Source: Gemmatimonadota bacterium (GTDB lineage: Bacteria > Gemmatimonadota > Gemmatimonadetes > Gemmatimonadales > Gemmatimonadaceae). Taken from it: a DNA stretch of 64,000 nucleotides. This document shows positions 18,984 to 57,679 of the stretch, in pieces; position 1 is the first letter of the stretch; each line of letters opens with the position of its first letter. The notes under the pieces are model-generated. The model was not told where the DNA came from and made no database searches. It saw only the letters and a list, made by a program, of their open reading frames with translations. The stretch lies in the NCBI GenBank assembly GCA_003223455.1, contig QHVE01000036.1:1-64000 (forward strand), given 5' to 3'. The position numbers were made by a program, and so were the translations under genes.

Positions 18984-20972
18984 TCAGCCGCGCGGCGCGT
19001 GTGATCCTGGAGCGGTCTGCGCATCGTGAATACGGGAGCGTCGCCTGCGATCGCGTCGTACGATGGACTGACGCGGTGCTCGCCGATCCACTCCGGGAGC
19101 CGAGCGAACAATGATATTCCGACTCCAGAGCGCGCCCTTGAGACCCTCGGGTGTGACGGGCGTCGAAAGGACATACTCGCCAGCGCGCTTGGGCGTGAAC
19201 TCGAAATCGTAGGTTTCGCCCACGTCGATGGAGAGTCGAGCCGCTCGCTCGGTCGCCTGTGCGCGAGGCAGGTCGGCTCCATCCTTGGCCACCGCCCGCC
19301 AGGTCGCGACTGTCGTGTCTCGGCGAAGCGAATAGAACATTGGGTCGGCCGGACCTATGTTGACGAACCGAAAGCGGTGCGTTTCACCCACGCGCATCTC
19401 CATCGCCGCTGACGAGACCGAATCGCCATTGATCAGCACGTGAGGGGCGTTGTCGAACTCCCAATCCCAGCCGGACACGATCACGTGATCCGTGCGCGCG
19501 TCGAACCGGTGTCCCGGTGCGAGCACGACGATCGCGCCATAGAGTCCAGACGCGAGCTGATCGAGATCACGCATATGCGTATGATAGATGAACGTTCCGG
19601 TGTGCGGCATCGACAGATGCGCGACGAAGCTGTCGCCGGCGGCGATCGCATGCGCGCTTCTGGTCGCATTCCCGCTCCACCCGGCGACGCCGTCCGACAG
19701 ACTCTCCAGCTCGAGACCATGCCAATGAATGGCTGTCGTCTCCGCGAGGCGGTTGTGCACGACGACGTCCGTCGGTTCGTTGCGCGTGAGCACGAGGACC
19801 GTACCGGGGATCACGACCGAATCCCGCGCCGGAGGGGCCGCACCTTGCTGGAGCACGTACCCGAGGGCCCGCGGCGCGCGGCCACGCCGTGCGCCCCCTT
19901 GTACGTAGAGGTCGAGCCGCCGCGCCGCGGCGCGCACCGGTTCGTGCGCGTGGGGTGGTAGCCTGGCATCGATGCCGAGCACCAGACCTGCCATGTGCTC
20001 GAGCGGATCGCTCGACGTTCCATCATGCCCGCCATGCTCGGCGGGCACGAGGCGGGCTGCTTCGGGCGTGACGTGAAACGCGATGTGGCAGTGAAAGATC
20101 CAGCGGCCGGCACGCACCGGTGACCACGCGATGAGCATCGTTTGCTCCTCCGCCATCTCCTCGGTGACGGCGAGCCGGCGATTGGCGAGCGTGTACGTCG
20201 TGTCAGCGAACGCGTCGCCCTTGGAGTCGACGCGGAAATAGGCACCGTGCAGGTGCATGGGATGCGAGCGGTTCGAGGCGTTGACCACGCGCCATCGGAC
20301 CGTGTCGCCGACCACCGCATCGAGCCGCTCGGTATACGGCCATGAGCGCCCGTTGATCGTCAGCGCATTGCCGTGCGACGTCGGCGTCGATTGCTCGCCC
20401 CAGATATTGATGACGAAGATGCGATCTGGTGTCGCGCCGCCACGCGGGTCCACCACGAACGCGCCGGCGGCCTGCTCGCGCTCGTGCAGCGGGTCGCCGG
20501 GCGAATGCGCACCGATGATCGCGCGATACAGGTAGGTGCCGGGAATCCCGGCTGAGAATCGGACCGTCCTGGTTTCGCCGGGTCGGACGAACAGGGTGTC
20601 GCGTCTCGTCGTCGGATGATCGGCCAGACCGAGGACGCCGATCGTGGAATCGGTGAGCGCATTGTGCACCGACGCGACGATGACTGTCCCTTCGCTCACG
20701 CGGATGAGAGGCGCCGGAATCTGCGACGCTTTTCCCTCCTCAGCGAACGCGGCGACCGCCACCGAAGGTCCGGTGTTCGCCTCGGGCCGCCAGTCCGACA
20801 TCCGGACCACGAGATGCAGGTCGAGCGTATCGTCTCGACGGGAGCCAGCGGCCACGCCATTGTCGTTCGGCTGAACCAGCGGCAGGTCGCGGGCCACGTG
20901 CTGGCCACTCGTCATCGCAGACAACGACGCGACGAGCACGAGGGCGGCGGAGGCCCGCCCGGCGTTGGTCAT
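18984..20972 (-). CDS. Multicopper oxidase with permuted copper-motif order
   Basis: 662 aa, signal peptide in the first 23 aa. All four copper motifs are present but in an unusual order: HPMHLH (237-242) and HCHIAFH (294-300, type 1 Cys295), normally in the last domain of laccases, come first; HWHG (416-419) and YHTH (463-466), normally in domain 1, come second. A cupredoxin-like domain without ligands precedes (about 85-180) and another follows (about 510-620). The full set of eight trinuclear-site His is kept, so it should be active on metal ions or phenols in the periplasm. The start at 20972 is chosen because a signal peptide follows; the upstream extension to 21098 is basic and unlikely. 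Confidence 0.85.
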   Translation of the reverse strand: MTNAGRASAALVLVASLSAMTSGQHVARDLPLVQPNDNGVAAGSRRDDTLDLHLVVRMSDWRPEANTGPSVAVAAFAEEGKASQIPAPLIRVSEGTVIVASVHNALTDSTIGVLGLADHPTTRRDTLFVRPGETRTVRFSAGIPGTYLYRAIIGAHSPGDPLHEREQAAGAFVVDPRGGATPDRIFVINIWGEQSTPTSHGNALTINGRSWPYTERLDAVVGDTVRWRVVNASNRSHPMHLHGAYFRVDSKGDAFADTTYTLANRRLAVTEEMAEEQTMLIAWSPVRAGRWIFHCHIAFHVTPEAARLVPAEHGGHDGTSSDPLEHMAGLVLGIDARLPPHAHEPVRAAARRLDLYVQGGARRGRAPRALGYVLQQGAAPPARDSVVIPGTVLVLTRNEPTDVVVHNRLAETTAIHWHGLELESLSDGVAGWSGNATRSAHAIAAGDSFVAHLSMPHTGTFIYHTHMRDLDQLASGLYGAIVVLAPGHRFDARTDHVIVSGWDWEFDNAPHVLINGDSVSSAAMEMRVGETHRFRFVNIGPADPMFYSLRRDTTVATWRAVAKDGADLPRAQATERAARLSIDVGETYDFEFTPKRAGEYVLSTPVTPEGLKGALWSRNIIVRSAPGVDRRAPRQSIVRRDRRRRSRIHDAQTAPGSHAPRG

Positions 20973-21155: not shown

Positions 21156-22193
21156 TCAGCGCTCTCTCGCCGATCGTTCGCGACGCGCCGCGTGGAACCG
21201 TTCGTAGTGGTCGGTCGCGATGAAATCGACTCCCGCCTCGATGGCGGCTCGCCATCGCCACTTCACGGCGGCATCGCTTCCGAAGTCGTACGACGGTGTC
21301 AATCCGTCGCCGTCCCCATTGAGAAACCCGTCGAGCGTGTAGAAGCGGATCCAGAGATGCTGTGCGTGCGCCCGCCTGACCAGAGCCTCCAACCGCGCCG
21401 CGTCGGCGGCACTCCAGTCTCCTGCCTTCGTCTGTCCTTCGGGCTCCACCACGAGCCACGGAAAGTTGACCCATCGCGCATAGTTGGATGCCTTCGGCGC
21501 GATGATCTGCTCCGCGGGCATGCGACTCATGTTCGCTTCGCGCTCGTCGTCGTTCGCGCCGGGCGCGACGGCCGACGGAATGGCGCCGAACGCGCGCAGG
21601 CGTTCGCCGACGGGAACGGCGTCATGGAAGCGCGCGCGCTGCGCCCCGTTGGAGCCGGACAGAACGAGCAACGGCCCGACGGTGAGCGGCTCGACCACGT
21701 CGGGCGTCGATGTCCGCGGCGCGGTGGTCAACCATGACTCGTATTGCCCGAGCAGCCTGTAGACGGCATCGAGCAGCGCTGCGTCGTTCTGCTTGAAGTC
21801 GAGATTGAGCACGATCAGCGGCCATGTCTCGCGTCTCTGCTCCGCGATCGCGCGCTCCATGATTGGACGAATCCGCTGGAAGAAATACCCATCGAGCGTC
21901 GGGGCGCGATCGAGCTCGGACGTGTCATGCGCGACGACGATCCGAAACCGCTGCTCGCGATCCTTCCGCCAGAAGAGGTCCTGCTCGATGGCGACGGGCA
22001 AGCCGGTCGACAGCGCGCGTTCGATGCGATCGCGCCACCGGTCGTTCTGCGGATAGGCATTGTGCGCATCGAGCAGCACGCGCTTCCCGGGACCGAAACC
22101 CTCTTGTCCCAGGAGCGCACCGCCCATTGGAGCCACGGCAGGTGAGAGGAGGCTGATCGCGACCGTGGCGACAAGAACGATACGAGCGGTCAT
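21156..22193 (-). CDS. PLC-like phosphodiesterase, secreted
   Basis: 345 aa from the ATG at 22193 (a GTG at 22214 would add 7 aa). A hydrophobic signal peptide (about 3-22) is present. The fold appears to be the PLC/glycerophosphodiesterase TIM barrel: LLDAHNAYPQND supplies the first His, VAIEQDLFW the acidic pair, VVAHDTS the second His, LIVLNLDFK the next strand and GVDFIATDHYE the last. These enzymes cleave phosphodiesters such as glycerophosphodiesters or phosphoinositol lipids with a divalent metal. The family is divergent, so the substrate is uncertain. It lies 183 bp upstream of the multicopper oxidase gene on the same strand. Confidence 0.75.
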   Translation of the reverse strand: MTARIVLVATVAISLLSPAVAPMGGALLGQEGFGPGKRVLLDAHNAYPQNDRWRDRIERALSTGLPVAIEQDLFWRKDREQRFRIVVAHDTSELDRAPTLDGYFFQRIRPIMERAIAEQRRETWPLIVLNLDFKQNDAALLDAVYRLLGQYESWLTTAPRTSTPDVVEPLTVGPLLVLSGSNGAQRARFHDAVPVGERLRAFGAIPSAVAPGANDDEREANMSRMPAEQIIAPKASNYARWVNFPWLVVEPEGQTKAGDWSAADAARLEALVRRAHAQHLWIRFYTLDGFLNGDGDGLTPSYDFGSDAAVKWRWRAAIEAGVDFIATDHYERFHAARRERSARER

Positions 22194-22281
22194 GAGCTGC
22201 GGCGAACTCCACACGGTGCGGGATGAAACGGCAGGCCCCTGAAATGAAAACCGGCAGCCGAGGCTGTGCCCATGGCGTCGC

Positions 22282-48104: not shown

Positions 48105-49379
48105 TCAGCGCGTGGTCCGCAGATACGGAGCGAGCACTGCGGGATCGCCGTCGGTGCGAGGCGCGCGCTGCAGACGCAGCATCGATGCGAGGAACGGATA
48201 GATGTGCACGCTCTCGAACGACGGAATCGTTCCCGACGGCGTGATCTGCGGCCCCGCCGCGACGAAGATCCCGTGCATCGACGAATCGGCGGGATCCCAG
48301 CCGTGGTTGCCGCGGTCGAGCAGGCGATCGCTCACGCTCTTCGCCACGACGTAGCCCGGCTCGGCGACGACGAGCACCTCGCCGCCGCGCACGTTGCCGT
48401 CCACGTGCCACCGTGCCGGCATGGCACCGCGCGCGTACGCGCGCGCGTGCGCGACGCCGGAGAGCGCGTCGAGCGTGCGACGCGCGAGTGCCGCATCACC
48501 GCCGAACCAGAGCGACATCGTCGGCCCGTTGTCGCCCATCTGTACGCGCGCCGTGTCGATCCCCGCCGCGGCGAGCAGCGGTCGAACTGGAATCATTTTC
48601 TCCTGCGTGCTCTCGGCCATGCCGTGATCGGAGAGCACGACGACGTTCACCGAGTCGCGGAGCGGCAGACGGTCGAGCGCGTCGATCAGGCGGCGCACCG
48701 CGCGATCGACGGACGCGACGGCCGGCGCCGTATGAGGCGAGTCGGGACCGAACCTGTGCGTCGTGTCGTCGACGTCGGTGAGGTACAGCATCACGAGGTG
48801 CGGGCGCCGCGGCGCGGGCAGGCGAAGCTGCGCCACGCTCGCGTCGACGCGCTCGGAGTCCGGCACGGACGACCGGTAGGGCCACCACGCGGATGGTCGC
48901 CCGCCCTGCACCGCGCCCTCCGAGCCTGGCCAGAAGTACACCGACGAATGGACGCCCTCACGCTCCGCCGCGACCCAGATCGGCACGCCGCCATACCAGT
49001 GGCCGTCGCGCACGGTCGCGGTGTCCTTCACGCGGAACCACGCGTCGAACGACGGATCGAAGAACGTATTCGAGAGAATCCCGTGGTGTCCCGGATACAG
49101 CCCCGTCGCGATGGTGTAGTGGCTCGGGAACGTCTTCGACGGGAACGGCGGGATGAGCGCGCGCGCGACGATACCGCGCGCCGCCAACCGCTCGAGCGCC
49201 GGAGGATGGAATCGTTCGAGGTAGTCGTGGCGAAACGCGTCCAGCGAGACGACGACGACGTACGGGCGGATGGCCGCGCCGTCACCCGCACTGCGGGACG
49301 ACGACGAGTGTGGCGCGCACGCCGTGCCGAGCGCGACGAGCGCCAGCCCGAATACGGAGCGAGCGCGGCGCGGAAGCAC
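48105..49379 (-). CDS. NPP-type phosphodiesterase/phosphatase, lipoprotein
   Basis: 424 aa from a GTG at 49379, 2 bp after the GH9 stop; this start gives a lipobox LGTACAP. Alkaline phosphatase superfamily, nucleotide pyrophosphatase/phosphodiesterase branch: VVVVSLDAFRHDY (metal Asp), PPFPSKTFPSHYT with the nucleophilic Thr in SKTFP, LYLTDVDDTTHRFGPDSP (metal ligands), VVVLSDHGMAE (metal) and GNHGWDPADSSMHGIF. It cleaves a phosphodiester or phosphate ester outside the cytoplasm. Being the last gene of a plant-polysaccharide operon is odd; it could dephosphorylate a released sugar. Confidence 0.88.
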   Translation of the reverse strand: MLPRRARSVFGLALVALGTACAPHSSSSRSAGDGAAIRPYVVVVSLDAFRHDYLERFHPPALERLAARGIVARALIPPFPSKTFPSHYTIATGLYPGHHGILSNTFFDPSFDAWFRVKDTATVRDGHWYGGVPIWVAAEREGVHSSVYFWPGSEGAVQGGRPSAWWPYRSSVPDSERVDASVAQLRLPAPRRPHLVMLYLTDVDDTTHRFGPDSPHTAPAVASVDRAVRRLIDALDRLPLRDSVNVVVLSDHGMAESTQEKMIPVRPLLAAAGIDTARVQMGDNGPTMSLWFGGDAALARRTLDALSGVAHARAYARGAMPARWHVDGNVRGGEVLVVAEPGYVVAKSVSDRLLDRGNHGWDPADSSMHGIFVAAGPQITPSGTIPSFESVHIYPFLASMLRLQRAPRTDGDPAVLAPYLRTTR

Positions 49380-49381
49380 CG

Positions 49382-51196
49382 TCAAGGCGCGCGCCTGGGT
49401 CGCGCGCCGTACTCGGCGTCGATCGCCGCCGAGAGATACGCGATCGGCGCGTTCCAGTTGATCGCGATCTCGTTCGACGCGTAGCTGCACTGCGCGTCGA
49501 GATACGAGAGCGCGGGCAGCGACGAGGGATAGCCCGTGCAATGGTCCTGCTGCGGGGCAGACGGGTTCGGACCGCCGACGAGCAGACCGGGCACCGGCTC
49601 CGGTATGGTGTCGGATGCCGACGGCCGATGGTGCGGGAACATCGGCGTCTTGGTGCCGACGCCCGTCACGAACGAGTATCCCGTCGGATTGCGCCCCACG
49701 AGATAGTCGAGGTTCGCGTGTGCGGCACGCAGGTAGCTCGTATCGCGCGTCAGGCGATACGCCTGGACGAGCACGAGCCCCTGGTTCGCCGCCACCGCGT
49801 TGCTCCCCCACGTGAAGTCGGCGCGCCGGCCCATCGCGATACCGTAGGCCGTCGTGTCGGCGACGAGGCGCAGCGAGCGGGCAAGTCCGATCAACAGCTC
49901 GACGATCTCGGACGCGGTAGCGATGGAAAGCTCTCGCCGATGCTCGGCGAGCGAGACGAGCGCCAGCGTGCCGACCGATCCCCACGACGGCACATCGACT
50001 GAGTCGGAAACGACCGGTGGCGCGGCGACGAGGAAGCTGTCCTGCTTCGTCGTGAGAAAGAGCTCGGCCGCCGCCCAGCGGAACTCGTCGCCCACGCGCC
50101 GGTCGCCGTACGTGCCCGTCTGGATCTGCGGCGCCGTCGCGGCGTTCAGCCGGCTCTGGTCGTACAACGAGTCCGGATGCTGCCGCGCCCAGCGCCACGC
50201 CGCCAGCGCCGCGCTCGCGAGCGAGTCGGCGAGGCCCGGCAGCTGACGCGGATATCCACGCACGACGCGCGATGCCTGCGCCATCACCGCCGCGAAGTCC
50301 AGCGTGGCCGCGGTGCTCTTCTGCACGACGTAACGCGGCGCGGTGGCGGCGCGCGGCTCGATGAACTGGTCGAACGCCGCATTGGTGAGCTTGTGATACA
50401 CGCCACCGTCGGCCGGATCCTGCATCGTGCGCATCCAGCGAACGTTGAACAGCGCCTCGTCCAGCACGTCCGGCAGCGCGTTGCCGCTCTCGGGGATGTT
50501 CGTGCGCAGCGCCGACGCGTACTGCGGGTACTGCTCCGCGAGGAGCAGCAGAGAGTACGTGCTGATCCCCGAGTTCACGACGTACTTGTTGTAGTCGCCC
50601 GCGTCGTACCAGCCGAGCGGCGACGAGATGCGCGTCCCCGCCGGCCGAGATGGCGATGCCGCCGACGGATGCACGAGCACCGCCGTGTCGGGGTGCCCCG
50701 CCCCGCGCGCCCATCGCCCCGCGTACGTCGGCTCGAGTGGGATCGCCGTACGCTGATAGTAGAAGCCCTTGAGCGTGGCGACGGCGAGCGCGCGAAGTGG
50801 ACGCGGCCCGATCTCGAACGCAGCGGATGCGCCGACGCCCGGCACGACGAGCCGATAGCGGCCTGGCCGCGTGAGTCGGCTGAAGTCGGCGCGCCGCACG
50901 TTCTCCTCGCCCGACAACGCCCACGACTTCGACGGCGTGAGCACGCCGCGCAGCACCGTGTCGCTCCGCTCCGCGCCGACGACGGCGAATGTCGACGCAC
51001 CCGCGCCGACCACTACCGCCACCTTCGGCGCGGCGGGAAGGAATCCGAGCTGGCTGAGCCGGATCGCGGCGGCGGTGGGCGCGATGGACGACGGAGTCTG
51101 TGCGCCCACCGGCGACGCGGCGAACGAGAGCGAGACGGCGATCCGCATGGTATGCGTCACGATCGTGCGCATCGCCCGATGTCGCCCGCCGGTCAT
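49382..51196 (-). CDS. GH9 glycoside hydrolase (endoglucanase/glucomannanase type)
   Basis: 604 aa. The start at 51196 is set by ATGA overlap with the GH27 gene; inner starts at 51172 and 51148 also keep the signal peptide (VSLSFAASPVGAQ). An N-terminal Ig-like CelD_N domain (about 42-130: IRLSQLGFLPAAPKVAVVV) precedes the helical GH9 domain. WYDAGDYNKYV holds the catalytic base pair Asp198/Asp201, MFPHHRPSA the conserved His motif, and NEIAINWNAP the acid Glu576. It acts outside the cytoplasm on beta-1,4-glucan stretches; in this locus glucomannan is likely. Confidence 0.93.
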   Translation of the reverse strand: MTGGRHRAMRTIVTHTMRIAVSLSFAASPVGAQTPSSIAPTAAAIRLSQLGFLPAAPKVAVVVGAGASTFAVVGAERSDTVLRGVLTPSKSWALSGEENVRRADFSRLTRPGRYRLVVPGVGASAAFEIGPRPLRALAVATLKGFYYQRTAIPLEPTYAGRWARGAGHPDTAVLVHPSAASPSRPAGTRISSPLGWYDAGDYNKYVVNSGISTYSLLLLAEQYPQYASALRTNIPESGNALPDVLDEALFNVRWMRTMQDPADGGVYHKLTNAAFDQFIEPRAATAPRYVVQKSTAATLDFAAVMAQASRVVRGYPRQLPGLADSLASAALAAWRWARQHPDSLYDQSRLNAATAPQIQTGTYGDRRVGDEFRWAAAELFLTTKQDSFLVAAPPVVSDSVDVPSWGSVGTLALVSLAEHRRELSIATASEIVELLIGLARSLRLVADTTAYGIAMGRRADFTWGSNAVAANQGLVLVQAYRLTRDTSYLRAAHANLDYLVGRNPTGYSFVTGVGTKTPMFPHHRPSASDTIPEPVPGLLVGGPNPSAPQQDHCTGYPSSLPALSYLDAQCSYASNEIAINWNAPIAYLSAAIDAEYGARPRRAP

Positions 51197-52323
51197 GCCC
51201 TGTGCAGACGTAGCATGAGCACATCCTTCGCCGGCACCGTCGCCACCAGGGGGCCAGCGGTCGTGCCCGCGCCCTGCTTCGTCCCCTGCGCCCACGTGAA
51301 GTTCACGGCGCGCGGCGTCGAGCTTCGGTTGAGGAAGGTCACCGCCCAGTCGCCGCCGACGAGCGGCTTGAACCAGATCTCCACGCTGTCCCGCGCCGCG
51401 TACTTGAACCCCTGCACGCCGAGCGAGTCCTGATTCACGGCGATCACGTCGCGGTTGGTGAGCACCTGCGCGACGTTCGCCGGCATCGATCGCAGGTCGT
51501 TCCCCGCGATGAGCGGCGCGGCGAGCATGCTCCACATGGAGAAATGGGCGCGGTCCTCGTTCGGCGTCAGCCCGTTGCCCACCTCGAGCATGTCGGGATC
51601 GTTCCAGTGCCCCGGGCCAGCGTACTCCCGCAACCCCTCCTGCTTGTCGAGGATCTGCAGCACGCCCCAGGCGCGCCATCCACCCATCTCCTTGATGCAG
51701 TCGAAGCAGGCGGTGATGTCGCCCGTCGTGCGCCACAGATGTCCCATGCTCGGCCCCCACGACCAGGGCTTGTTGTTGCCCCACTCGCAGATGCTGAACA
51801 CGATCGGTCGCCCCGCCTTCGCGAGCGCGTCGCGCATCGTCATGTAGGCGCCCGGCGCATTGAGCGAGTCGGAGGAGCACCAGTCGTACTTGAGGTAGTC
51901 GATCCCCCACTTCGCGTAGGTGAGCGCGTCCTGGTACTCGTAGCCGCGGCTCCCCGGACGGCCGCCGCAGGTCTTGTTGCCCGCATCGGAGTAGATGCCG
52001 AGCTTGAGCCCCTTCGCGTGCACGTAGTCGGCGAGCGACTTCATACCCGAGGGAAAACGCGCCGAATCGGGATGGATGAAGCCGAGGCTGTCGCGCGCCC
52101 CGTGCCAGCAGTCGTCGATGTTGATGAACTGATAGCCGGCGTCCTTCATCCCCGTAGCGGCCATCGCGTCCGCCGTCTCGCGGATGAGCCGCTCGCTCAC
52201 GTTGCACTGAAACTTGTTCCAGCTGTTCCAGCCCATCGGCGGCGTCTTGGCCAGCTCGGTGAACTTCTGCGCGTCGGCGCGCGGCGCGGCGAGACAGAGG
52301 ACGACGAGGAGCAGGCGTCGCAT
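51193..52323 (-). CDS. GH27 alpha-galactosidase
   Basis: 376 aa with a signal peptide (ends ADAQKF). GH27 hallmarks: TPPMGWNSWNKF, INIDDCWHG, LGIYSDAG, nucleophile Asp147 in YLKYDWC and the acid/base Asp in HWNDPDML (242-244). A C-terminal beta domain closes the protein. It should remove alpha-1,6-galactose branches from galactomannan or raffinose sugars. Its stop overlaps the GH9 start (ATGA), and it lies 56 bp after the ROK regulator gene, so regulator and enzymes are probably one transcript. Confidence 0.95.
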   Translation of the reverse strand: MRRLLLVVLCLAAPRADAQKFTELAKTPPMGWNSWNKFQCNVSERLIRETADAMAATGMKDAGYQFINIDDCWHGARDSLGFIHPDSARFPSGMKSLADYVHAKGLKLGIYSDAGNKTCGGRPGSRGYEYQDALTYAKWGIDYLKYDWCSSDSLNAPGAYMTMRDALAKAGRPIVFSICEWGNNKPWSWGPSMGHLWRTTGDITACFDCIKEMGGWRAWGVLQILDKQEGLREYAGPGHWNDPDMLEVGNGLTPNEDRAHFSMWSMLAAPLIAGNDLRSMPANVAQVLTNRDVIAVNQDSLGVQGFKYAARDSVEIWFKPLVGGDWAVTFLNRSSTPRAVNFTWAQGTKQGAGTTAGPLVATVPAKDVLMLRLHRA

Positions 52324-52379
52324 GATGAATTCCGTTCGTTGAGATTGGGGCCCGACCGGCGGGCGCCGGCGGCGACGTA

Positions 52380-53633
52380 TCACAGCGATCTGGCTGATCG
52401 ACGCAGCCCCGAGCCGCCGTGTGCGCCGCCGCGCCGGTCCTTCAGCAGCAGACGAGGCGCAGGCGCGAAGATCTCGTAGATCGGCAGGGTCGCCACGCCG
52501 AGCGCACCGGCATCGACGCCCGCGGTGGCGACGAGGTGCCGCGGCACCGATACCTTGCCGTGCGGACGGCGCGTCGGGAGGAGCTGCGCCACGCGGTCCA
52601 TCAGACCGGCCAGGATACGGTCGGACAACCGGCCGCCGAAGCAGATCGCTTCCGGATCGAGCACGTACTCGATCGCCAGCACGAGCGCCGTGAGGTGATC
52701 GGCGGCGTCGTCCATCCATGCGAGCATGCCGGGATGCGACTTCGCGAAAAGCTGGTCGAGCTCCTCGAGCGTGCCGACCTCCGTACCGCCGCGCCGCAGA
52801 CGTTCGTAGAGGCGGGGCATGTTGAAGTGCAGCCCGACGTGCGGTGCGTCCTCCGTCGCCGGCGTCGAGGCGTCGCCCGAGAGCACCGTCGGCAGATAGC
52901 CGATCTCGCCCGCGTTGCCGGTGAACCCCTCGTACGGCTGCCCGTTCATGATCAGGCCGCCCCCCAACCCGCTTCCCACATAGATGTAGAAGAACGTTCC
53001 GACCTGACGGCCCGCGCCGTACCACCGCTCGCCGACCGCCGCCGCGAGCGCGTTGTTCTCCAGGTAGACCGGCGTGTCGAGCCGCTCGCGCAGCCGGCCG
53101 GCGAGCGGGATGTCGTGCCAGCCCGGGAACGCCTTGGGATTCACGAGATAGCCCGTGCCCTGCTCGTCGCGACGCATCGGCCCCGGCACGCCGACTCCCA
53201 GCCCCGCGAGATCGCCGACGCCGAGCCCCTGCCGAGTCGCCATCGTCTCGACCATGCCGCACATGAGGTCCACCACCTCCGCGGGCGACGGCGTCTCCAC
53301 CTCCATGTGCATGCGCTGCCGCACCTGCCCCGCGAGATCCACCAGCACGCCGGTGAGATGGTCGCGATCGAGATCGAGGCCGATCGCATGAGCGCCGTCG
53401 GGATTGATCGTGAGCTCGGTGGATGGCGCCCCGCGCCCTTCGCTGCGGCGCCCACCTTCCTGCACGAGGCGCAGGGAGAGCAGCTCCTTCACGAGGTTGG
53501 AGACGGTCTGTACGCTGAGCTGCGTGTGTCGGGCGACGTCCGCTCGCGAGAGGGGACCGTGCACCCGGATCACCTCGTGCACGATGCGGAGGTTGTACTT
53601 CTTCGTGTAGACGAGGTTGGTGCCTGTCAGCAC
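52380..53633 (-). CDS. ROK-family transcriptional regulator
   Basis: 417 aa. The N-terminal winged helix (about 14-70: HGPLSRADVARHTQLSVQTVSNLV, split at RHTQ) precedes a ROK sugar-kinase-like domain: GLGVGVPGPM, YLENNALAAAVGERWYG and GSGLGGGLIMNG. The usual zinc-binding CxCGxxGC motif after GNAGEIGYLP is missing. Repressors of this kind (NagC, Mlc, XylR) release DNA on binding a sugar or sugar phosphate. It starts the minus-strand arm of the mannan locus, divergent from the acetylesterase, and is the likely controller of both arms. Confidence 0.9.
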   Translation of the reverse strand: MLTGTNLVYTKKYNLRIVHEVIRVHGPLSRADVARHTQLSVQTVSNLVKELLSLRLVQEGGRRSEGRGAPSTELTINPDGAHAIGLDLDRDHLTGVLVDLAGQVRQRMHMEVETPSPAEVVDLMCGMVETMATRQGLGVGDLAGLGVGVPGPMRRDEQGTGYLVNPKAFPGWHDIPLAGRLRERLDTPVYLENNALAAAVGERWYGAGRQVGTFFYIYVGSGLGGGLIMNGQPYEGFTGNAGEIGYLPTVLSGDASTPATEDAPHVGLHFNMPRLYERLRRGGTEVGTLEELDQLFAKSHPGMLAWMDDAADHLTALVLAIEYVLDPEAICFGGRLSDRILAGLMDRVAQLLPTRRPHGKVSVPRHLVATAGVDAGALGVATLPIYEIFAPAPRLLLKDRRGGAHGGSGLRRSARSL

Positions 53634-53780
53634 GGGATCGCGCGACTCGGTTGGGGTGAGGCGAGGCTGCTAAAGTAGCACCAGCCGAGACGGCGCGGAG
53701 CCCTGCCCTCGTCTTGACGCTGCGCGGGACGATGGCGCATATACGCGACCGCTCCGCACGCCCCGCACGTCGCTCGTAAT

Positions 53781-53799
53781 TATTCCATTCATTGGAATA
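53781..53799. promoter_or_regulatory. 19-bp palindrome, likely ROK operator
   Basis: Perfect arms TATTCCA and TGGAATA around TTCAT, in the only strongly AT-rich spot between the two divergent operons. Size and AT-rich symmetry resemble NagC/XylR-type ROK operators. Confidence 0.7.
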
Positions 53800-53835
53800 T
53801 ATCGAGCCCACGTTTTTCCAGACGACAGTCTCCCG

Positions 53836-55791
53836 ATGCGCTTTCTCACGTTCGGCCGGACGACCCTGGTCGCGACCCTCTGGGCCGCGACCTCCGCCGC
53901 GGGGCAAGGCGACTCCGCCCGCGCCCTCCGCCTGCCGCGGCTGTTCGGCGACGGGATGGTGCTCCAGCGCCAGGCTCGCGTTCCCGTGTGGGGATGGGGT
54001 GCGCCGGGTCGATCGGTCACCGTCGCGCTCGACGACGTGGTTCGAACGACGACGGCCGCCGCGTCGGGCGCATGGCGCGTCACGCTCCCGCCGCAGAGCG
54101 CCGGCGGCCCTCGCCGCCTCGTCGTTCGCTCGGGCGCCGACAGCGTCGTGTTGCGCGACGTCCTTGTCGGCGACGTGTGGGTCGCGTCGGGCCAATCGAA
54201 CATGGAGTGGCCGCTCGTCAACACGCGGAACGCGGCCACCGAGATCGCCGCGGCGAACGACCGACGGCTTCGGCACTTCAAGGTGCCGACGTCGTTCTCG
54301 CAGGTGCCCGAGGCCGACCTGGTGGGCGGCTCGTGGGCGGTCGCCGACTCGCAGCACGTCGGCACGTTCAGCGCGGTCGCCTACTACTTCGCACGCGATC
54401 TCCGCAAATCGCTCGACGTCCCGATCGGCATCATCAACACGACGTGGGGGGGCAGCCGAATCGAGACGTGGATGAGCCGCGCCGCGCTCGGTCTCGACAG
54501 CGCGCGGTGGACCGCGGTGTGGGCCGAGGAAGCAGCATCGCAGCGGCGGTTCGCCGAGAAGCTGCGGGCGAAGATCGGCGACCTCCCCAAGACCGACCCG
54601 GGGCTCGTCGACGGTCGCGCCCTCTGGGCGGACCCCGCGCTCGACGAGAGCGGGTGGCAACCCATCACCGTGCCGGCGCTGTGGGAGCAGCAGGGCTACG
54701 ATGGCCTCGACGGCATCGCGTGGTATCGTGTCGCGTTCGAGCTCTCGGCCGACGACGCAGCGCGCGGTGTTCGCCTCGGTCTCGGCCCGATCGACGACGC
54801 CGACATCACCTGGGTGAACGGCGTCGAGATCGGCCGCACGAACAACTACAGCCTGCCGCGCGTGTACGACGTGCCGGCGCGCGCGCTCCACGCCGGCCGC
54901 AACGTCATTGCCGTGCGCGTCGAAGACACGGGCGGGGGCGGCGGCATCTGGGGCGACTCGGCGGGCGTGTTCCTCGACGTCGGAGGCACACGGCGATCGC
55001 TCGGCGCGGGGTGGAAGTTCCGCGTCGGCGGCGCATCGCTGCAGCCCGACGGCCAGCACATCAACAAGGTGCCGACCGTCGTCTACAACAGGATGGTGCA
55101 TCCCCTGCTCGGCTTTCCGATCAAGGGGGTGATCTGGTACCAGGGCGAGTCGAACGCCGACAGCGCCGCGGACGCCCGCAAGTACGCACCGCTGTTCAAG
55201 ACGATGATCCAGAGCTGGCGAGGCGAATGGCGCTCGGGCGAGTTCCCCTTCCTCTGGGTGCAGCTGGCCAACTTCATGGCGCCCGACTCGCAGCCGCCGG
55301 CGCAGAGTGCGTGGGCCATCCTGCGCGACGCGCAGACCGCGGCGCTGGCTCTGCCGAAGACGGGCCAGGCGGTGATCATCGACGTGGGCGAGGAGAAGGA
55401 CATCCACCCGCGCGACAAGCTCGACGTCGGCACTCGCCTCGCGCTCGCCGCGCGCCACGTGGCGTACGCGCAGCCCGTCGAGCACATCGGTCCGACGCAT
55501 CGGTCGCACGTCGTGCGGGGCAACGCGGTCGCGGTGCAGTTCGAGCACGTGGGCGGTGGGCTCGTGAGCCACGCGAACGACGGTGCCGTCGGCGGTTTCG
55601 CGATCGCCGGCGCGGACCGGCGATTCGTCTGGGCCGACGCACGCATCGAGCGAAACACCGTGATCGTGTCGAGTCCGCAGGTCGCTGCACCGGTCGCCGT
55701 GCGCTACGCGTGGGGGAACAATCCCACCCGGGCGAGCCTGTACGGCAAATCCGGACTGCCCGCCGTGCCGTTCCGCACCGACACCTGGTAG
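53836..55791 (+). CDS. SASA-type carbohydrate acetylesterase
   Basis: 651 aa with a signal peptide. Annotated family: sialate O-acetylesterase (SASA, SGNH fold). VASGQSNMEW has nucleophile Ser121, IWYQGESNAD is the conserved block III-like region, and KDIHPRDK has the catalytic His524. A jelly-roll insert (about 255-375, WYRVAFELSADD... WVNGVEIGRTNNY) interrupts the esterase domain, as in other family members. No sialic-acid genes are near; in this locus it likely removes acetyl groups from mannan. It is the first gene of the plus-strand operon. Confidence 0.9.
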   Translation: MRFLTFGRTTLVATLWAATSAAGQGDSARALRLPRLFGDGMVLQRQARVPVWGWGAPGRSVTVALDDVVRTTTAAASGAWRVTLPPQSAGGPRRLVVRSGADSVVLRDVLVGDVWVASGQSNMEWPLVNTRNAATEIAAANDRRLRHFKVPTSFSQVPEADLVGGSWAVADSQHVGTFSAVAYYFARDLRKSLDVPIGIINTTWGGSRIETWMSRAALGLDSARWTAVWAEEAASQRRFAEKLRAKIGDLPKTDPGLVDGRALWADPALDESGWQPITVPALWEQQGYDGLDGIAWYRVAFELSADDAARGVRLGLGPIDDADITWVNGVEIGRTNNYSLPRVYDVPARALHAGRNVIAVRVEDTGGGGGIWGDSAGVFLDVGGTRRSLGAGWKFRVGGASLQPDGQHINKVPTVVYNRMVHPLLGFPIKGVIWYQGESNADSAADARKYAPLFKTMIQSWRGEWRSGEFPFLWVQLANFMAPDSQPPAQSAWAILRDAQTAALALPKTGQAVIIDVGEEKDIHPRDKLDVGTRLALAARHVAYAQPVEHIGPTHRSHVVRGNAVAVQFEHVGGGLVSHANDGAVGGFAIAGADRRFVWADARIERNTVIVSSPQVAAPVAVRYAWGNNPTRASLYGKSGLPAVPFRTDTW

Positions 55792-55795
55792 CGCC

Positions 55796-57679
55796 ATGCA
55801 GCTTCACGTCATCGACGTCGCGATCATCGCCGCCTACATCACGGCGACGATCGTCATCGGGTTCTGGATCTCGAAGCGCGCCTCGCGCTCGCTCCGCAAC
55901 TATTTCCTCGGCGGCAACACGATTCCGTGGTACGTGCTCGGTGTCTCCGATGCGTCCGGGATGTTCGACGTCAGCGGCACGATGTGGATGGTGTACCTGC
56001 TCTTCGTCTACGGATTGAAGAGCATCTGGATCCCATGGCTCTGGCCCGTCTTCAACCAGATCATCCTCATGGTGTTCCTCTCGACCTGGCTGCGCCGGTC
56101 GGGAGTGATGACGGGGGCCGAGTGGATCCGCTTCCGCTTCGGCGAGGGGCGCGCGAGCAATCTCGCGCATCTCATCGTCGTGCTGTTCGCGCTGCTCAAC
56201 GTCATCGGCTTCCTCGCCTACGCGTTCATCGGCATCGGGAAGTTCGCTTCGACGTTCCTGCCGTGGGCGCTGGCGGCGGACCCGACGACGAACGCGAAGC
56301 TGTGGGGGCTCCTCATCATCGCCATCACGACCCTCTACGTGGCGAAGGGCGGGATGTTCAGCGTCGTCTTCACCGAGGTGCTGCAGTTCACGATCATGAC
56401 GATCGCCAGCATCTCCGTCGGCATCCTCGTCATGCGCGAAGTGAGCCCGGACGTGCTGAACCAGTTCGTTCCCGGCGGGTGGCGAAGCCCGTGGTTCGGG
56501 CGCACGCTCGGTCTCGACTGGTCGGCGCTCATGCCCGCCGTGAACAAGCGCATCGCGAACGACGGCTGGACGCTGTTCTCCGCATTCTGGGGGATGCTGC
56601 TGTTCAAGGGGCTGCTCCAGGCGGGGGCGGGGCCGGCCCCGAACTATGACATGCAGCGCATCCTCTCGACGCGCTCGCCGCGCGACGCGGCGAAGATGAA
56701 CGGGTTCGTGAACGTCGTGCTGCTGATCCCGCGGTACATGCTGATCACCGGGCTCACCGTGCTCGCCCTCGCGTTCTTCAGCCCGCAGCTCCGGGCGATG
56801 GGCGACGGCGTCGACTTCGAGCTGATCCTGCCGCTCGCACTGAAGAGCTTCGTGCCGACGGGGCTGCTCGGCCTCCTCATCGCCGCGCTGCTCGCCGCGT
56901 TCATGTCGAACTTCGCGGCGACGGTGAATGCGGCGCCGGCCTACATCGTGAACGACATCTACCGGAAGTACGTGCGTCCCGACGCCGATCAGCGCACCCT
57001 CGTGCGCATGAGCTATCTGAGCTCGGTCGGCGTCGTGGTGATCGGCACCGGGATGGGCTTCTTCGTCGGCTCGTTGAACACGATGGTGCAGTGGATCGTG
57101 TCGGCGCTGTACGGCGGCTACACCGCGTCGAACCTCCTCAAGTGGTACTGGTGGCGGTTCAACGCGTGGGGCTACTTTTGGGGAATGGTCGCGGGTATCG
57201 CCGGCGCTGGGCTCGTCCCCGCCCTGCTGCCCAGTGTGGCGCCGATCTTCGCCTTTCCCGCCATCCTCGCGCTCTCGCTCGTCGGCTGCATCGCGGGCAC
57301 GCTGCTGACTCCTCCGGACGACCCCCTCGTCCTCGAGCGGTTCTATCTGCGGGTGCGTCCGTGGGGATTCTGGAGACCGGTGCACGACCGGCTGGCCGCG
57401 ACGCATCCGGGACTCGTCGCGAACGGTGCGTTCAAGCGCGACATGTTCAACGTCGCCGTCGGCATCGTGTGGCAGACGGCGCTCACGGCGACGGGAATCT
57501 TCATCGTGCTGCGCGACGTGCGGGCGCTCTTCATCTCCGTCGGCCTCGTGCTCGTCTCGGCCGTCATCCTCAAGGTGAGCTGGTACGATCGCCTCGAGGA
57601 TTTCCCGGCCGACCTTCGAGCGGGCGACGGACGCGATGTCGAGCCCGAAGCGAAGGTGCTCGCCGCAGCGGCGCCGTGA
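55796..57679 (+). CDS. SSS-family sodium/sugar symporter
   Basis: 627 aa, about 14 hydrophobic helices. Sodium:solute symporter features: [25 protein letters not shown], split at LGV, near helix 1, the [21 protein letters not shown] segment around the substrate/Na site, and a long cytosolic C-terminal end. Only 4 bp separate it from the esterase gene. In Bacteroides mannan loci a similar symporter imports mannobiose; the same role fits here because the epimerase and phosphorylase that follow are cytoplasmic. Confidence 0.92.

Follow-up and report, generated by a model that had tools for sequence, protein, structure and literature searches.

A four-domain multicopper oxidase with swapped motif order that recurs in Gemmatimonadota

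The gene, its motifs and its four domains

The window, that is the whole stretch of 64,000 nucleotides analysed here, carries on its minus strand a gene for a multicopper oxidase (MCO) of four cupredoxin domains, D1 to D4. Its features are as follows:

18984..20972, minus strand: four-domain multicopper oxidase gene, 662 aa (ATG at 20972; the stop ends at 18984)
20439..20831, minus strand: D1, aa 48-178, cupredoxin domain of the first type, lacking copper ligands (hhalign profile comparison)
20049..20432, minus strand: D2, aa 181-308, last-type domain with putative type 1 ligands and half of the putative trinuclear site (Pfam, profiles, alignment)
19920..20048, minus strand: loop and linker rich in His, Met and Asp, aa 309-351, which sets the presumed axial Met327 apart from the type 1 His
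19992-19994, minus strand: Met327, presumed axial ligand (Met in 30/31 relatives)
19512..19919, minus strand: D3, aa 352-487, first-type domain carrying the remaining half of the putative trinuclear site (Pfam, profiles, alignment)
19101..19499, minus strand: D4, aa 492-624, cupredoxin domain of the last type, lacking copper ligands (hhalign, Pfam Cu-oxidase)
18984..19088, minus strand: C-terminal tail, about aa 629-662, without counterpart in relatives (pLDDT <50 at 634-662)

The protein begins with a hydrophobic segment typical of a Sec signal peptide, with a helix predicted at residues 6-19. An earlier note on this DNA had proposed that laccase last-domain motifs stand ahead of first-domain motifs, and the reading frame and all four motifs are indeed found at the places claimed: H237PMHLH and H294CHIAFH are followed by H416WHG and Y463HTH, in the order C-D-A-B. 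These motifs of the multicopper oxidase superfamily supply three type 1 and eight trinuclear ligands. Pfam places Cu-oxidase_2, the last-domain model, at residues 201-306, Cu-oxidase_3, the first-domain model, at 388-485, and Cu-oxidase at 509-604, within D4. The score with the NCBIfam model TIGR01480 is 95.5 bits against a cut-off of 478.95, which places the protein outside the CopA/PcoA copper-resistance class.

Profile comparisons with hhalign returned scores for D1 of 101 with the first domain of two-domain MCOs, 95 with that of three-domain MCOs and 70 with D3, compared with 7.6 for the three-domain middle domain. D1 has GLADHP where HxHG would be expected and YLYRAI in place of YHxH. Scores of 180 and 157 were obtained for D2 with last domains, and of 206 and 196 for D3 with first domains. 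D4 scored 82 with the last domain of two-domain MCOs, 67 with the three-domain middle domain and 54 with D2, and it weakly matches D1 (21) and D3 (22). By these profiles the architecture reads first-LAST-FIRST-last, lower case marking the domains whose ligands are lost. The two halves, A (D1-D2) and B (D3-D4), align collinearly as profiles over 196 columns (probability 99.1, E 1.2e-18, 22% identity). The earlier note had also described a ligand-free domain before each half. One such domain, D1, does precede the half with the C and D motifs; the second, however, is the last domain of the chain, D4, and only a loop and linker of about 43 residues separate D2 from D3. Mean pairwise identity among 31 family members is 42% for D1 and 44% for D2, and D1 thus seems to be kept for structure, being about as conserved as its neighbour. 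The C-terminal tail, of about 34 residues, is Arg-rich and predicted to be disordered, and it extends past the end of nearly all relatives, as if an ancestral stop had been lost.

The oxidase gene is flanked by a class C beta-lactamase-like gene on one side and an unassigned gene on the other, with Ser/Thr kinases beyond. Among 69 neighbouring proteins of the family loci no Pfam family occurs more than three times, and neither a conserved operon partner nor a gene context pointing to a substrate was found around these loci. As its neighbours are not conserved, the protein looks like a stand-alone exported enzyme. A 352-residue protein without a Pfam match adjoins the oxidase on the same strand (window 21156-22214). 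Elsewhere in the window (48108-55797), two long open reading frames hold phosphodiesterase (PF01663) and alpha-galactosidase (PF16499) domains, both preceded by very long unassigned N-terminal parts.

Putative copper ligands and predicted structure

The earlier note's proposal that all ligands of one type 1 and one trinuclear site are kept is borne out by an alignment of 31 relatives, in which they are invariant or nearly so. Residues H237, H240, H294, C295, H296, H300, H416, H418 and H464 are found in 31/31 sequences, as is D427, the Asp after HWHG in D3, and H242 and H466, both assigned to the trinuclear site, are conserved in 30/31. By their motifs, the type 1 ligands in D2 are H237, C295 and H300, and the eight trinuclear histidines are shared between D2 (H240, H242, H294, H296) and D3 (H416, H418, H464, H466).

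The usual axial Met, five residues past the last His, is missing in the four-domain family. Its presumed counterpart, Met327, starts the next strand, after a loop that spans roughly 15-45 residues across the family. In some two-domain relatives the axial Met is likewise shifted by a few residues (HCHILPHAESEHGMFGMV), a shorter displacement than the one seen here, and this makes Met327 a reasonable axial ligand, probably in an unusual, loop-separated position. The loop (301-326) is rich in His (9.0% versus 3.7% overall) and Met (5.6% versus 2.3% overall), and has low pLDDT at 309-324. Lying beside the type 1 site, it might feed metal ions to it.

An AlphaFold2 model of the oxidase (pLDDT 82.6, pTM 0.84) found its best PDB matches in factor V, factor VIII, ceruloplasmin and MnxG, over ~700-860 columns (864 for MnxG, 9bxa), and the best six-domain matches have TM-scores to the query of about 0.55-0.62. 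The value for three-domain laccases is about 0.3, with an r.m.s.d. of 16 Å. When the D2-D3 fragment was predicted alone (pTM 0.76), it matched ceruloplasmin and factors V and VIII across both domains (TM-score to query 0.55-0.64, r.m.s.d. 5.4-9.5 Å), compared with a TM-score of about 0.3 and r.m.s.d. values of 13-21 Å for two- and three-domain oxidases. Since these matches are sequential, D2 would pack on D3 as a last domain does on the first domain of the next unit, and this predicted packing corresponds to the type of junction that carries the trinuclear site in known oxidases. As the models match six-domain proteins across the D2-D3 junction, we infer a putative type 1 copper in D2 and a putative trinuclear cluster at the D2:D3 interface, which would place the O2-reducing site between the middle pair of domains rather than between the first and the last.

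Conservation of the order and distribution of the family

The order C-D-A-B, with all four motifs, was found in 54 of 55 distinct relatives, and none of these 54 has ligand motifs in D1 or D4. Such agreement rules out an assembly accident, as well as the outcome that would have overturned the earlier note, an ordinary-order laccase with misassigned motifs. The exception among the 55 (L016:3270-5153) reads YHTR for YHxH and thus lacks one trinuclear ligand. The control set of 65 ordinary multicopper oxidases, retrieved for the most part through Pfam domain models blind to motif order, shows A-B-C-D throughout, or A-B-C in type C two-domain proteins. Pairwise identity within the family is about 45-50%.

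A scan of one genome per species returned 30 loci, 28 of them swapped-order relatives, in Gemmatimonadota, Acidobacteriota (mostly Terriglobia), one Rokubacteria and one Sphingobacteriales MAG. Within the window's phylum, family profile A1, built from 31 members, hit 53 of 150 genomes, representing 29 of 75 genera; almost all of these matches span the full length, and several of the matching genomes are single-contig. In the phylum to which a Terriglobia member belongs, the same profile matched 4 of 149 genomes, and in the phylum of the Sphingobacteriales member 3 of 198, own seed included in each case; it gave no full-length match in 299 genomes from the phylum of a Herminiimonas MAG. The cultured isolate Gemmatirosa kalamazoonensis carries a family member on a 1.1-Mb plasmid; among 72,556 plasmids, no other matched over >80% of the query. 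Genome G079, with five family copies, has a match on contig 3 at nearly the same coordinates and is probably this organism. The four-domain layout thus recurs across soil bacteria, most often in Gemmatimonadota. Viral contigs held no relatives and there was no PHROG match, and a phage or virus origin of the family was rejected on these grounds.

Several loci hold more than one copy or an altered gene. The window's genome has two further swapped-order paralogues (L039 on contig C18, L040 on C90) and an ordinary two-domain oxidase (L041). Four family genes lie in direct tandem on a Gemmatimonadaceae MAG contig (L032:9-7848), the first cut by the contig or by the gene call. On another contig (L031:910-3771) a family member is fused to a C-terminal PD40/beta-propeller region (954 aa) and followed by a second member, and on the contig of the nearest relative (L009:1965-7881) two divergent members flank a subtilase gene. 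An apparently split gene (L067 in G150) was discarded, as the break falls at a run of N, an assembly gap.

Proposed mechanism, origin and known systems

Ring-shaped two- and six-domain oxidases form their trinuclear cluster where the last domain of a unit meets the first domain of the following one. With a probability of about 0.77, we read the protein as a secreted four-domain multicopper oxidase in which two two-domain units stand in tandem, with a single type 1 copper and, at D2:D3, a single trinuclear cluster. Such a chain would contain just one internal junction between units, and for this reason the ligands would have been kept at D2:D3 and lost from D1 and D4, whose outer faces would be partnerless. 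Single electrons from the substrate would enter at the type 1 copper of D2 and cross the HCH bridge to the cluster, where O2 would be reduced to water. Copper binding and oxidase activity are predictions from the sequence; the substrate may be a phenol or a metal, with Mn(II), Fe(II) and Cu(I) among the candidate ions.

The earlier note had offered two histories. A tandem two-domain ancestor with complementary losses fits both the domain types and the collinearity of the halves, and a duplicated two-domain ancestor is the history that we favour. A circular permutation of a duplicated three-domain laccase is excluded in its simplest form (D2-D3-D1-D2), because D1 is no middle domain; a three-domain tandem with trimmed ends, which predicts the same series, was rejected on the same scores (95-101 versus 7.6). 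The note had also called for a phylogeny of each domain. In these trees D1, D2, D3 and D4 of the family each form a single clade, so that the swapped order most likely arose once. The halves are not shown as sisters: D4 groups with the middle domains of three-domain oxidases (94/94) and D2 with their last domains (92/82), so that the halves might stem from different sources. The pairings D1+D3 and D2+D4 are nevertheless not rejected (p-AU 0.30 and 0.27).

These results leave room for other histories. The protein may be a shortened six-domain oxidase, a MnxG/Fox1-type ancestor minus domains 5 and 6, which would work by the same mechanism. The site layout published for bacterial six-domain MCOs is identical (PMC3600357), the reversed order is published for MnxG (PMC3618234), and MnxG ranks with the best matches by fold. 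Neither the 150 genomes of the window's phylum nor the 299 of another, however, yielded a six-domain relative of strong similarity, and we regard this origin as a real possibility at less than even odds. The family is likened to MnxG and Fox1 by published layout, and to MnxG also by fold match; a search of 20 large genomes found no MnxG sequences. A permuted three-domain laccase would make D2 the laccase D3, and D3-D4 the laccase D1-D2, preceded by an extra first-type domain that has decayed, such as a duplicated ancestor of four domains would leave. D3-D4 does align contiguously with D1-D2 of three-domain laccases in the PDB, and the tree positions of D4 and D2 point the same way. Ligand loss, however, can itself pull D4 and middle domains together, the simple cut fails on D1, and in trees of joined two-domain units the grouping of half B with laccase D1-D2 lies 14.5 log units below the best (p-AU 0.096), versus 1.5 (p-AU 0.28) for half A with half B. 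We consider such a derivation unlikely.

SufI and factor V are examples of relatives that serve as non-enzymatic copper-binding or scaffold proteins, and the motifs of the family could likewise persist by descent only, D1 and D4 being ligand-free already. The ligand set is nevertheless invariant in D2 and D3 at a pairwise identity of about 45-50%, whereas nothing kept D1 and D4 from shedding theirs, which argues for selection on the D2/D3 site and makes a non-enzymatic role very improbable. That the gene is an ordinary laccase with misassigned motifs, or two genes joined in a MAG assembly, has a negligible chance. The assembly holding the window does consist of 127 contigs, but the order recurs in nearly all relatives, in single-contig genomes and on the isolate's plasmid, and ordinary oxidases recovered by the same means show the normal order.

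To our knowledge, the step from trimeric two-domain to single-chain multicopper oxidases is known from schemes only. What those schemes lack is an intermediate such as this four-domain form, which is widespread, has just one internal junction and decayed outer faces, and can be expressed and solved. The literature describes multicopper oxidases of two, three or six domains (PMC7036934, PMC3600357). Tentatively, and at slightly worse than even odds, the family could form a separate four-domain class beside these, arisen by two-domain duplication and complementary ligand loss as the surviving mirror image of an intermediate that might be postulated on the path to three-domain laccases. A search for four-domain multicopper oxidases in the open literature, which leaves out most subscription journals, returned nothing relevant.

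MnxG and its bacterial six-domain counterparts already show the swapped order; what is new here is the size of four domains, the taxonomic spread and the His/Met-rich loop before the presumed axial Met. In MnxG the C and D motifs lie close to the N-terminus, and the A and B motifs further towards the C-terminal end (PMC3618234); in bacterial six-domain MCOs the cluster sits between domains 2 and 3, and domain 2 has the sole type 1 copper (PMC3600357). The family shares the reversed order and the inferred cluster position with these proteins and with Chlamydomonas Fox1 (PMC3618234, PMC3600357): C-D precedes A-B, the cluster ligands lie in domains 2 and 3, and the type 1 ligands in domain 2. It differs in size from the MnxG/Fox1 type (six cupredoxin domains, over ~1000 residues), and six-domain MCOs exceed 1200 residues whereas family members have four domains in ~650, with neighbouring genes that are not conserved. 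Ceruloplasmin and factors V and VIII, the best fold matches, have an inter-unit junction resembling the predicted D2-D3 packing, but six domains rather than four, and the ceruloplasmin cluster lies between domains 1 and 6.

Two-domain (type B, SLAC-like) laccases are collinear over their whole chain with the D1-D2 half, and form their cluster between one unit's last domain and the next unit's first, as proposed for the family. They are, however, homotrimers with every ligand set in each chain, whereas the family has four domains, as two units per chain, each lacking half of the ligands. Three-domain laccases, CueO and CopA likewise have one type 1 and one trinuclear site; laccase D1-D2 resembles D3-D4 of the family, and laccase D3 resembles D2. 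Their motif order is the opposite, A-B-C-D instead of C-D-A-B, and the family differs further in its four domains and its predicted six-domain-like packing.
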